DNA of 28,635 nucleotides, from positions 1 through 28,635 of the IMG/VR virus record IMGVR_UViG_3300030329_002952, one strand, 5' to 3'. The notes beneath the pieces are model-generated. The model ran no database searches, had not been told where the DNA came from, and saw only the letters and a list, made by a program, of their open reading frames with translations. Shown here one piece after another: positions 2,007 to 4,677 of this stretch; positions within the stretch are counted from its first letter, which is position 1; each line of letters opens with the position of its first letter. Source of the stretch: a virus. A program made the translations under genes and the position numbers.

Positions 2007-2788
2007 AGTTGCATCACCAGCTGACTCATACGCTTGGCTGCTATCTCGCAGTAACGTTCCTCTATCTCTATTCCGATTGCTTTACGGTTGAGGTTTTTGG
2101 CTGCTCGCAAAGTCGTACCACTCCCCATGAACGGATCGAGAACTGTTTCACCTGAGTTAGACCACGAAACAATGTGATCGGCTGCCATGCTGTAAGGCAT
2201 CGGCGCAGGATGACCACCGTTATCGGTTGTCGGTGAGTTATCTATACACCACCAGTTATAGCGCATCCCGTAATCCTTCACCGCTTTGCCTTCACCGTGT
2301 ATCTGACGAGTAGATCCATCCTTTAGTCGGTCAGTACCGTGCATCTTCATACCGCCATAGATGTTCTTGCGATCCTGAATGGGGTTGAACGTCTTAGGCT
2401 TTCCCCAGCTAAATACGAACATGTATTCATGTGCAGAGAAATAACGGTTCGACTCAGGGAAGTTCACGCCTTCCTTGATGTAGTGCATCGTGTCGTGCAG
2501 GTTCATGCCTTGTTCCAGCATCAATAATGCTTGTCTGAAGCTGTCACCTGATTCGCTACCGTTTACTGTTTCATCAGATGTATTCCAAACGATCACCCCA
2601 CCCTCTTGAACAGATTTCGATATTGCTACCATTGACGATTGCCAATCAAAACCATGCCCGCCGTAGTCCCTTAACGAGCCATAGGGCGGGGACGTAACCA
2701 CCAAGTCAACTTTGTCGAGAGTTGGCAAAACATCACGACAGTCGGCGTTGTAGATGGTGATGAATTCATCTTGGTAATAGGGTTTCAT
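2003..2788 (-). CDS. Beta-class DNA methyltransferase (N6-adenine or N4-cytosine)
   Basis: The protein is 261 aa. The catalytic motif IV TSPPY is at residues 32-36, and the SAM-binding motif I DPFMGSGTT is near the C-terminus (about 218-226). That order (IV, target region, I) defines the beta group of amino-methyltransferases. The motif sits next to a GSLRDYGG segment typical of M.MboII-like enzymes. TSPPY is compatible with N4-cytosine or N6-adenine methylation, and the sequence alone does not settle which. No cognate restriction endonuclease is visible nearby, so it is most likely an orphan enzyme protecting phage DNA. It overlaps both flanking genes by 4 bp. Confidence 0.92.
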   Translation of the reverse strand: MKPYYQDEFITIYNADCRDVLPTLDKVDLVVTSPPYGSLRDYGGHGFDWQSSMVAISKSVQEGGVIVWNTSDETVNGSESGDSFRQALLMLEQGMNLHDTMHYIKEGVNFPESNRYFSAHEYMFVFSWGKPKTFNPIQDRKNIYGGMKMHGTDRLKDGSTRQIHGEGKAVKDYGMRYNWWCIDNSPTTDNGGHPAPMPYSMAADHIVSWSNSGETVLDPFMGSGTTLRAAKNLNRKAIGIEIEERYCEIAAKRMSQLVMQL

Positions 2789-3114
2789 AGTTCTATTTCA
2801 ACCTGTGCGCTTGGTCGCCATCCGCAATAGATACAGGACAGCGCGTCTTCAATTTCATTACCTATTCCGAAATGTAATCGACCAAGACATTTAGGGCATT
2901 TCTGGAGTCCTGTTATGTCTTCAGGAATGACAGTGCTTTTAGCAACTTCGCGCAAATCTTTTCGTGTGATGCGAAATACGTCGCGTTTTTTACCTTCAAT
3001 CCGTTTGCATATTCTGCATACAGCGTAAGTATTGCCATGCTTGCGTTGCCAGTAAGTGTTTTCAGTATTCATCTTGTGTCCGACAGGACATTTTTCTTTT
3101 GGCTTCGGCATCAT
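2785..3114 (-). CDS. Small protein with two predicted zinc sites
   Basis: The protein is 109 aa. The first site is CPVGHKMNTENTYW followed by CRIC (Cys9, His13, Cys33, Cys36). This pattern resembles the CxxGHxxTxENTY module that I associate with phage HNH endonucleases and their zinc arms. The second is CPKC followed by CIYCGW (Cys73, Cys76, Cys94, Cys97), a standard zinc ribbon. No HNH catalytic triad is visible, so this may be a DNA-binding accessory protein or a relic of a nuclease. Two adjacent ATGs (ATGATG) are possible starts; the outer one overlaps the upstream stop. Confidence 0.7.
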   Translation of the reverse strand: MMPKPKEKCPVGHKMNTENTYWQRKHGNTYAVCRICKRIEGKKRDVFRITRKDLREVAKSTVIPEDITGLQKCPKCLGRLHFGIGNEIEDALSCIYCGWRPSAQVEIEL

Positions 3115-3425
3115 TTTGACCGCCTCAATTCTCTTATCTCAAAGAACCCGTCAAGATCCTTTTCCTGTTGCATAATCAGTCGTGCATACTCGCTCCTGAA
3201 ATCGTTAGACAACTTGAACCCTTCCGAACCCTTCGTGTCTATGAAGTGCAGCCAGCGCAGTCGCTCAAAAATCAGGGCAATGCCCATCTTGTGTATTCCC
3301 CTGCCCTGCATCACGCGAGCGATATCCACGATAGCGTGGTAGACAGCCGGGTTATCGTAGTGGAAATCTATGAACCTTTCGCGAATCGATTTGCGCCCCT
3401 TGTTAGTTAGTTGTAGTTGAACCAT
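3111..3425 (-). CDS. Conserved small phage protein of unknown function
   Basis: The protein is 104 aa. Segments such as HKMGIALIFERLRW and FKLSNDFRSEYARLIM match, from memory, a widespread small phage protein family found beside replication and methyltransferase genes. It contains no recognised catalytic motif. A GAGAGAA Shine-Dalgarno-like stretch precedes the ATG. The N-terminus overlaps the 3' end of the cytosine methyltransferase gene by 23 bp, a longer overlap than elsewhere in the cassette. Function is unknown. Confidence 0.75.
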   Translation of the reverse strand: MVQLQLTNKGRKSIRERFIDFHYDNPAVYHAIVDIARVMQGRGIHKMGIALIFERLRWLHFIDTKGSEGFKLSNDFRSEYARLIMQQEKDLDGFFEIRELRRSK

Positions 3426-4614
3426 TTATTCTCTCTTTCAATATCTGAAAAGCCAGTGCAGCCTGTTGCGGGACTACTCCGTTTCCCAACAGGCGAAGCT
3501 GTGCAGTTCTATCCAGTCCTCTGGCCATCCCATTAGCCATTCCACGAACTTCGAGTTCAACCGTCGCCGGGGCGAGATCGGGTCGTTCTCTGAGGACTTC
3601 TTCCCAGGCTTCGCTGTCGTGGGGTGCTGGTGGAAACTTTCGGATTGAGCATCCAGATAATGACGATCTAACCGATGTTTGTGAGAGGCTGACCCCGGTG
3701 GTCCGGTTCCCTTCCACTCGCTGCTTCTGGGCGTTGCCCATGTGCTTGCCCGATCTTCGAGGTTCAGGCTGTGGTCTGTCTTCCCTTCCTTCGGTTCTCT
3801 TCGACCCTTCTCGTTGATCACCATTCCCGGATGCGGATATTCCTGAGTCGATGGGGTGGGCCACTCGCTCGCTACCATTGACAGAGGGTGACCTCCCTGC
3901 GCGTACCTCTTCGATCTGTCTGTCGCCGAGTCTGTTGTCGCTGTGGGCCGCTCTGCTTGCCCCTCGCGAACGTTCACCTGATCTCTCAGGTTGTTCGGAG
4001 CTGTCCTGCCCTTCCTGACCGTCGAAGACTCCCTGTCCAGTGCCTCTTGGCTCTTCGGAGGCAGAGAGTCCATCGTGTTCGGCGTTCCCCAGTTGTTTGT
4101 GAGCAAGGATGAAGACTCGCTCCCTTCTATGGGGCGCACCGACTGCCGATGCTCGTACAGAAACCCACTCCGCATCGTACCCGATTTCGGAAAGTTCTCC
4201 GAGTACAGTTCCAATTCCTGATCGAACAAGGAGACCTGGGGTGTTCTCCAAGAAGAGGTATCGGGGTCGTATCTCAGAAGCCAGTCGCCTAATGTGTTCC
4301 CAGAGCCATCGCTCGTCATCGGCTCCTCTCCTGTTTCCTGCATAGGAGAATGGCTGACATGGGAACCCCCCAATGATCCAATCCACTTTTCCAACAAACG
4401 GTCGGCAGTCGAGGGTTCCGGTATCAGACCAAACAGGTGCTTCATCCAATAGACCCGCTTTAATGTGGTCAACCATGAGCGCGGCTGCCGATAACTCTCG
4501 TTCCACGTATAAGAGCGGGACAGCATCTGGATTCGCGAGTCGGAATCCGAGATCGAGTCCACCCCCACCTGAGTAAAGGGAGATGTAGGTTTGCTGTCCG
4601 GTATGTAAAGCCAC
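3403..4614 (-). CDS. dcm: C5-cytosine DNA methyltransferase
   Basis: The protein is 403 aa, starting at GTG. Motif I is SLYSGGGGLDLGF (about 12-24), motif IV is GGFPCQPFSYAG with catalytic Cys86, motif VI is FLENTPGL (Glu123), motif VIII is GAPHRRERVFIL (about 159-170), and the C-terminal motif X is LLGNGVVPQQAALAF. Residues about 174-330 form a hydrophilic target-recognition region with repeated GNAE/AHSD/AHPI/MGNAQ phrases. No in-frame start lies between the GTG and motif I, so the GTG is required. The Shine-Dalgarno GAGAGG lies 8 nt upstream. GC content is visibly higher than in the neighbours. The enzyme probably protects phage DNA. Almost the entire gene is also open in a second same-strand frame (3474-4616), described separately. 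Confidence 0.93.
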   Translation of the reverse strand: MALHTGQQTYISLYSGGGGLDLGFRLANPDAVPLLYVERELSAAALMVDHIKAGLLDEAPVWSDTGTLDCRPFVGKVDWIIGGFPCQPFSYAGNRRGADDERWLWEHIRRLASEIRPRYLFLENTPGLLVRSGIGTVLGELSEIGYDAEWVSVRASAVGAPHRRERVFILAHKQLGNAEHDGLSASEEPRGTGQGVFDGQEGQDSSEQPERSGERSRGASRAAHSDNRLGDRQIEEVRAGRSPSVNGSERVAHPIDSGISASGNGDQREGSKRTEGREDRPQPEPRRSGKHMGNAQKQRVEGNRTTGVSLSQTSVRSSLSGCSIRKFPPAPHDSEAWEEVLRERPDLAPATVELEVRGMANGMARGLDRTAQLRLLGNGVVPQQAALAFQILKERINGSTTTN

Positions 4615-4616
4615 AT
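3474..4616 (-). CDS. Overlapping-frame candidate gene inside dcm (phage methyltransferase-associated family)
   Basis: This is a 380-aa same-strand frame wholly open inside the cytosine methyltransferase gene. It starts at an ATG two bases upstream of the dcm GTG behind the same GAGAGG site. From residue about 107 it shows phrases I recognise from a separate phage protein family: DWLLRYDPDTSSWRTPQVSL (111-130), NFPKSGTMRSGFLYE (141-155), WGTP, EWPTPSTQEY and TWATPRSSEW repeats (175, 251 and 292 onward), and RRLNSKFVEWLMGWPEDW near the end (351-368). The first 100 residues look less protein-like. Either the DNA is genuinely dual-coding, or the familiar family is itself made of dcm alternate frames. 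Expression is unproven. Confidence 0.45.
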   Translation of the reverse strand: MWLYIPDSKPTSPFTQVGVDSISDSDSRIQMLSRSYTWNESYRQPRSWLTTLKRVYWMKHLFGLIPEPSTADRLLEKWIGSLGGSHVSHSPMQETGEEPMTSDGSGNTLGDWLLRYDPDTSSWRTPQVSLFDQELELYSENFPKSGTMRSGFLYEHRQSVRPIEGSESSSLLTNNWGTPNTMDSLPPKSQEALDRESSTVRKGRTAPNNLRDQVNVREGQAERPTATTDSATDRSKRYAQGGHPLSMVASEWPTPSTQEYPHPGMVINEKGRREPKEGKTDHSLNLEDRASTWATPRSSEWKGTGPPGSASHKHRLDRHYLDAQSESFHQHPTTAKPGKKSSENDPISPRRRLNSKFVEWLMGWPEDWIELHSFACWETE

Positions 4617-4677
4617 TCCAATCCTCTCTTCTAATTAGAATTCATTCCAAATTTTAGAGACAGTTTTATAAACTGCT
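4617..4677 (-). promoter_or_regulatory. Inverted repeats upstream of dcm (candidate operator)
   Basis: This 61-bp gap precedes the two overlapping starts. TTCTAATTAGAA (4629-4640) is a perfect 12-bp palindrome that abuts the Shine-Dalgarno site. CAGTTT-TAT-AAACTG (4661-4675) is an inverted repeat with a TATAAA-like box at its centre on the minus strand. A decamer AAACTGCTTT is tandemly repeated at 4670-4679 and 4680-4689. The layout suggests local control of the methyltransferase. No good -35 box was found, so a promoter is not established. Confidence 0.35.

Follow-up and report, generated by a model that had tools for sequence, protein, structure and literature searches.

Two reading frames at one locus

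The window analysed is the whole stretch of 28,635 nucleotides of the virus record IMGVR_UViG_3300030329_002952. Two open reading frames, here called alpha and beta, overlap on its minus strand over 1.14 kb (378 codons), and they are listed with their features in Table 1. The twin starts are separated by 2 nt and lie within agagaggaTTGGAATGTGGC, where a single Shine-Dalgarno-like stretch, 5 nt upstream of the ATG of beta and 7 nt upstream of the GTG of alpha, is followed by the two start codons in that order.

Table 1. Features of the alpha/beta locus, in window coordinates
Feature	Position	Strand	Basis
Alpha, predicted C5-methyltransferase large subunit, 403 aa, GTG start; motifs I-VIII and X, without IX	3403-4614	-	ORF
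Beta, +1-frame ORF relative to alpha, 380 aa and stop, ATG start	3474-4616	-	ORF
Twin start ATGTG (beta ATG 4616-4614, alpha GTG 4614-4612)	4612-4616	-	sequence
Shine-Dalgarno-like AGAGAGGA, common to both starts	4622-4629	-	sequence
Alpha motif IV, FPCQPFS, with catalytic cysteine	4345-4365	-	sequence; alignment to HhaI and HaeIII
Alpha motif VIII, GAPHRRER	4117-4140	-	sequence; Pfam match ends here
Motif VIII-IX interval, dual-read: W.TP repeats in beta, GNA/AD-type repeats in alpha	3561-4116	-	codon-position rates favour beta
Putative beta motif IX, LNSKFVEWLMGWPEDW; alpha frame there VRGMANGMARG	3513-3560	-	relatives, codon-position rates, model
Alpha motif X, GNGVVPQQ	3463-3486	-	phrog_1008 C-terminus match

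An earlier note had placed two same-strand frames here and both were recovered, on the minus strand at 3403-4614 and 3474-4616, along with every phrase that it quoted from them. The length it gave for the second frame agrees with the 380 aa plus stop found, but the ATG lies at 4616, two bases past its quoted end. Its statement that the dcm frame has all the major motifs had to be corrected: alpha carries I, IV, VI, VIII and X, with IX in the beta frame, and the Pfam C-5 methylase profile (PF00145, E=1.3e-30) covers residues 10-182 only. Within alpha the order of motifs I, IV (PCQ), VI (ENx) and VIII is that expected for PF00145 enzymes, HaeIII and HhaI are among its matches, and it also matches phrog_363 (E=4.5e-56).

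Beta matches phrog_1008, ‘DNA methyltransferase’ (E=4.7e-23). It has no match in Pfam or NCBIfam, nor has any of the 74 beta family members (0/74), and neither its sequence nor its predicted model matched any solved fold in the PDB. The C-terminal end of the phrog_1008 profile matches alpha residues 365-394; since the alpha C-terminus and beta both match this one profile, there was a first hint that the beta segment and motif X lie in one frame in some phages. In the window itself they are not on one chain, as X is in alpha and the IX-like segment is in the +1 frame only.

The gene lies in a replication/modification region: the eight neighbours scanned include an N6/N4 methylase, a primase-polymerase and a nuclease of the PDDEXK_1 type, and none of the eight could be recognised as a partner restriction enzyme. 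Three genes downstream of alpha/beta, at 2003-2788 on the minus strand, the N6_N4_Mtase match (PF01555, E=1.4e-38) represents a second DNA methyltransferase.

Stop codons, selection and start signals

Relatives were drawn from phage records, viral contigs and one genome per bacterial species. They were sampled by similarity to the window gene and the counts cover the matches listed, so no frequency in nature is claimed. When alpha was recoded at random from its own codon usage with its amino acids fixed, 8.8 stops were expected in the beta frame of the window and none is observed (378 codons, P=5e-5); 16.3 are expected if the codon usage is that of the other window genes. In the reverse test, with beta fixed, the alpha frame has 0 stops against 14.8 expected. 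The nested arrangement, as judged from the predicted frames, was found again in no fewer than 200 genes of phages and bacteria, where the annotation usually shows one protein only. In 200 distinct nested relatives the beta frames contain 2 stops against 417 expected with alpha recoded, and in the reverse test the alpha frames contain 0 against 951. The +2 frame of the same relatives holds 1381 stops against 1539 expected, and the excess openness is therefore specific to the +1 frame. The nested loci share kinship and their stops are not independent events; with one locus per 60%-identity cluster (62 clusters), 1 beta-frame stop is seen against 130 expected, the lowest of 1000 simulations being 100, so that the deficit is still extreme.

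A natural control was provided by a scan with alpha N-terminal peptides only, in which the matches listed fall into two gene types (four loci in the count were taken from the survey of one genome per bacterial species). The 48 listed one-chain relatives, with motif IX in the alpha frame, have 110 +1-frame stops in 6163 codons and none is stop-free, whereas all 17 listed nested relatives, with IX in the +1 frame, are stop-free (0 stops in 2074 codons). Whether the +1 frame is open thus depends on the position of motif IX and not on dcm ancestry.

Substitution patterns point the same way. At fourfold sites where the alpha residue is conserved, third-base identity between pairs of relatives rises from 0.34-0.48 in the 5' part, where alpha is not overlapped, to 0.56-0.81 within the overlap, despite alpha protein identity being lower inside the overlap than outside it; the synonymous sites of alpha are constrained inside the overlap only. 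The difference rates at alpha codon positions 1/2/3 are.137/.066/.464 upstream of the opening of beta,.190/.099/.299 across motifs VI-VIII,.518/.390/.422 in the target-recognition (TRD) interval between VIII and IX,.194/.091/.100 in motif IX and.115/.039/.444 past the end of beta. Position 1 of alpha is position 3 of beta, which is the fastest position both in the TRD interval and in IX; beta is thus the dominant frame from the VIII-IX interval onwards, until alpha takes over again at X.

Beta profiles trained on other clusters were also used to score natural genes against alpha-preserving recodings. Natural and recoded sequences score 75 and 50 bits in the N-terminal part, 69 and 34 in the middle part, and 83 and 6 in the part comprising TRD and IX, where the natural score beats all 15 recodings in 92 of 92 cases. 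The middle motif TWPKSGTMRNG is partly forced by the conserved GDLAEMGYDAEW of alpha; the C-terminal part is not. That partial forcing, by DLAEMGYDAEW, and the 34 of 69 bits that recodings retain, are what could be said for the artefact view that the earlier note had allowed, in which the second frame is a shadow cast by the coding bias of dcm and has given rise to a spurious database family. Against the stop counts, the synonymous constraint, the held-out profile scores and the one-chain control, five tests in all, this explanation keeps a negligible probability and is ruled out at the level of sequence. The other course offered by that note, real dual coding with purifying selection on both frames, is strongly supported by these sequence comparisons: neither scattered stops (2 against 417 expected at the 200 loci) nor synonymous-like drift is found in the second frame of relatives, and members of the second family that are read in frame, in one-chain genes, do exist.

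Residues 1-120 of beta (4257-4616, minus strand) show the pattern R.W....KR..W...L.G...EPST, conserved beyond the shadow of alpha in full-overlap betas. This N-terminal segment, which overlaps motifs I-IV, is without a counterpart in known enzymes.

The start signals of beta are also retained. The two starts are spaced by -2, -5 or +4 nt in 93 of the 112 full-overlap relatives examined (23, 19 and 51, respectively), whose beta N-termini are conserved as MWLYxP or MSWLFSQ. In another class beta opens within alpha, around 75-120 codons upstream of the end of motif VIII; here a Shine-Dalgarno-like site accompanies 60 of 76 first starts, as against 9.5% of random positions in the same genes. The comparison of relatives thus shows both frames to be kept as predicted proteins, with IX in beta, X in alpha, and conserved start signals for beta.

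The probable contribution of beta to the methyltransferase

The one invariant pattern across the 74 betas is LN..........LMG.P, and VEW is almost invariant. One-chain relatives from actinophages and Streptomyces have LNxxFVEWMMGLP in frame between VIII and X, 23-24 codons upstream of X, which is the place of motif IX in C5-methyltransferases. The predicted model of one such relative, L284 (pLDDT 79, pTM 0.78), matches M.HhaI over residues 2-293 (Z 24.7, 3.3 Å over 225 residues). A weak second HMMER domain sets lmGlpkgwvt...LGnGvv against VMGYPDSY...FGNSVV of HhaI, but with a score of -0.8 it is not significant alone, and when motif IX was compared directly with solved enzymes by profile the match was too weak by itself; the identity of motif IX in beta is drawn from its position, its in-frame relatives and the fold, and not from a sequence-level match to HhaI. 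The model predicted for beta alone is poor (pLDDT 57) and confident at residues 345-375 only, the putative motif IX helix, as would be expected if beta folds on alpha. The segment is best read as the C5-methyltransferase motif IX that alpha lacks, and beta probably supplies most of the target-recognition small domain. The separate phage family that had been supposed to overlap dcm is better described as the motif-IX and target-recognition part of the same enzyme; outside two matches on contig fragments, no beta was found away from a C5-methyltransferase.

It is very probable that a single gene specifies a two-chain cytosine-5 DNA methyltransferase, with one subunit in each frame. Alternatively, beta may be a real but separate protein overprinted on dcm, for example a regulator, a chaperone or an anti-restriction factor. 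Such a role would accommodate the conservation of the N-terminal half of beta (over alpha I-VIII) beyond the shadow of alpha, which motif IX does not explain, and the lack of a solved relative. It is nevertheless unlikely, because it leaves alpha without a motif IX, and because one-chain relatives read the C-terminus of beta in the same frame as I-VIII and X, codon-position dominance moves to beta exactly across the TRD and IX, AquI-like relatives hold IX and X together in the +1 ORF, and, contig fragments excepted, no beta was found that lacks an adjoining methyltransferase.

It could also be supposed that ribosomes reach the +1 segment by programmed frameshifting, giving an alpha-beta fusion chain instead of two proteins. 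This would join I-VIII to IX, and it would suit Mycobacterium phage GigiOuiOui and the AquI-like loci, where IX and X follow VIII in one frame. Two shifts would be needed at nested loci, however, since motif X is again read in the alpha frame there; moreover the +1 frame is open and conserved far 5' of VIII, and the start codons and Shine-Dalgarno sites of beta are conserved. Frameshifting is for these reasons very improbable.

Under the preferred two-subunit reading, one ribosome-binding site would feed two starts 2 nt apart, the ATG giving beta and the GTG alpha. Alpha would contribute the domain for cofactor binding and catalysis (I-VIII) as well as the motif X helix at its C-terminus, and beta would contribute motif IX, probably together with most of the small domain for target recognition. 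We infer that both proteins are made and bind each other, assembling as in M.EcoHK31I, and that the complex would methylate DNA; its role may be to methylate the phage's own genome and so shield it from host restriction.

The principle of split motifs is already known from M.EcoHK31I. Lee, Kam and Shaw reportedly found in 1995 that its small subunit, of about 176 aa, occupies a different reading frame within the ORF of the large one. Nesting of the second ORF in another frame of the large one, as reported for M.EcoHK31I, is found here. The large subunit of that enzyme (YGGCCR) has motifs I-VIII and X, and only IX is in the small one (PMC3404938); compared by description, the predicted division of motifs between alpha and beta is the same. 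The window beta differs in spanning alpha from its start codon, as a twin start, over 380 aa. Furthermore, the TRD of EcoHK31I was predicted in the large subunit (PMC3404938), whereas the codon-position data place it here mainly in beta. M.AquI (CYCGRG) likewise has two chains, of which beta carries IX and X (PMC3404938), and it shares with the window gene a division after motif VIII; the window gene has X in alpha, however, and an AquI-type small subunit with IX and X is not what it encodes. Such an arrangement is present in the AquI-like relatives L038, L074, L167, L179 and L241, where the +1 ORF holds IX and X, 49 codons apart, and alpha stops just past motif VIII (later in L167). The one-chain C5-methyltransferases of actinophages and Streptomyces (phrog_1008 type) share the catalytic domain, the W/L.TP region, LxPxFVEWxMGLP and GNGVVPQQ, but have everything in one frame and a stop-rich +1 frame. 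The ShiLan insertion in mycobacteriophage methylases also gives a phage methylase gene a second protein in a different frame, but there it is an inserted HNH homing endonuclease (PMC11855218) and no part of the enzyme.

Distribution and proposed conversions of the nested gene

Nested genes occur in records named Chloroflexi, Proteobacteria, Bacteroidetes, Spirochaetia, Planctomycetota, Firmicutes, Myxococcus, Rubrobacter and others; many of these records are MAGs and many are perhaps prophages, so the host names are leads only. In a quick IQ-TREE tree of the alpha domain (84 rows; the midpoint was used and the root not inferred), nested rows lie on either side of the midpoint, the one-chain form is a single clade (support 99) among nested rows, and the AquI-like form marks five independent changes, at least three of these being forced by the starred branches. 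The simplest reading is that the overlap would be old and has been resolved several times. On balance, it seems somewhat more probable than otherwise that full-length same-strand dual coding from twin out-of-frame starts is ancient and has been stably kept across phages and many bacterial phyla, and that AquI-like splits and one-chain genes have repeatedly formed from it by frameshift.

In L039, L221 and L222 the alpha frame closes soon past VIII, yet X lies in the alpha frame downstream of IX, possibly indicating a third piece or a broken alpha. The one-chain methylase of Mycobacterium phage Fancypants (L007:1657-2232) keeps SWKMW...ETWPKTGYMSDG...LPTP in its other frame, which may be left over from the N-terminus of a lost beta.

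Another subfamily of cytosine methyltransferases from prophages is seen at L335:132-1118 (E. coli PT62, NZ_CP090448.1) and L337:292-1368 (E. coli 126), with an open +1 frame of around 300 codons ending LNPAHSRWLMGLPRAWD and LNPALSRWLMGLPREWD, respectively; it was matched in 15 of 5426 complete genomes and RefSeq annotates its alpha ORF only. PT62 has a second nested gene (L254:2500-3237; alpha of 245 aa, beta ORF 2504-3256, MSWLFSQ...LNPQWVEWFMGWP), again with only alpha annotated. Damaged copies occur in E. coli PCP07014 (L253:2500-3261), with internal stops close together in both frames, and in ECCTRSRTH03 (L336), annotated as two incomplete pieces. The nested L254 copy in PT62 and the damaged L253 copy in PCP07014 were found with Acinetobacter phage DNA.

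The literature searched yielded no published description of phage-wide nesting, nor of the full-length twin-start overlap, its breadth, the selection on two frames or a beta-dominated TRD and IX. What is new here is the full-length twin-start form and its spread through phages and many bacterial phyla, together with the evidence for two-frame selection and the repeated conversions to AquI-like or one-chain forms. Long same-strand overlaps conserved across such distances are rare and are discarded by annotation pipelines, the E. coli PT62 records with only alpha annotated being an example. Since codon optimisation would destroy beta, an annotated ‘DNA cytosine methyltransferase’ of the nested type may be inactive if it is cloned in codon-optimised form. 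The nested family offers hundreds of natural replicates in which two-frame purifying selection can be measured, with the one-chain relatives as a built-in control, and it makes testable both the stability of a fully overlapped enzyme and the switching between one-chain and two-chain forms. If the reading of an old, stable dual-coding state is true, this family would rank with the largest that are known for long same-strand gene overlaps of bacteria and phages.
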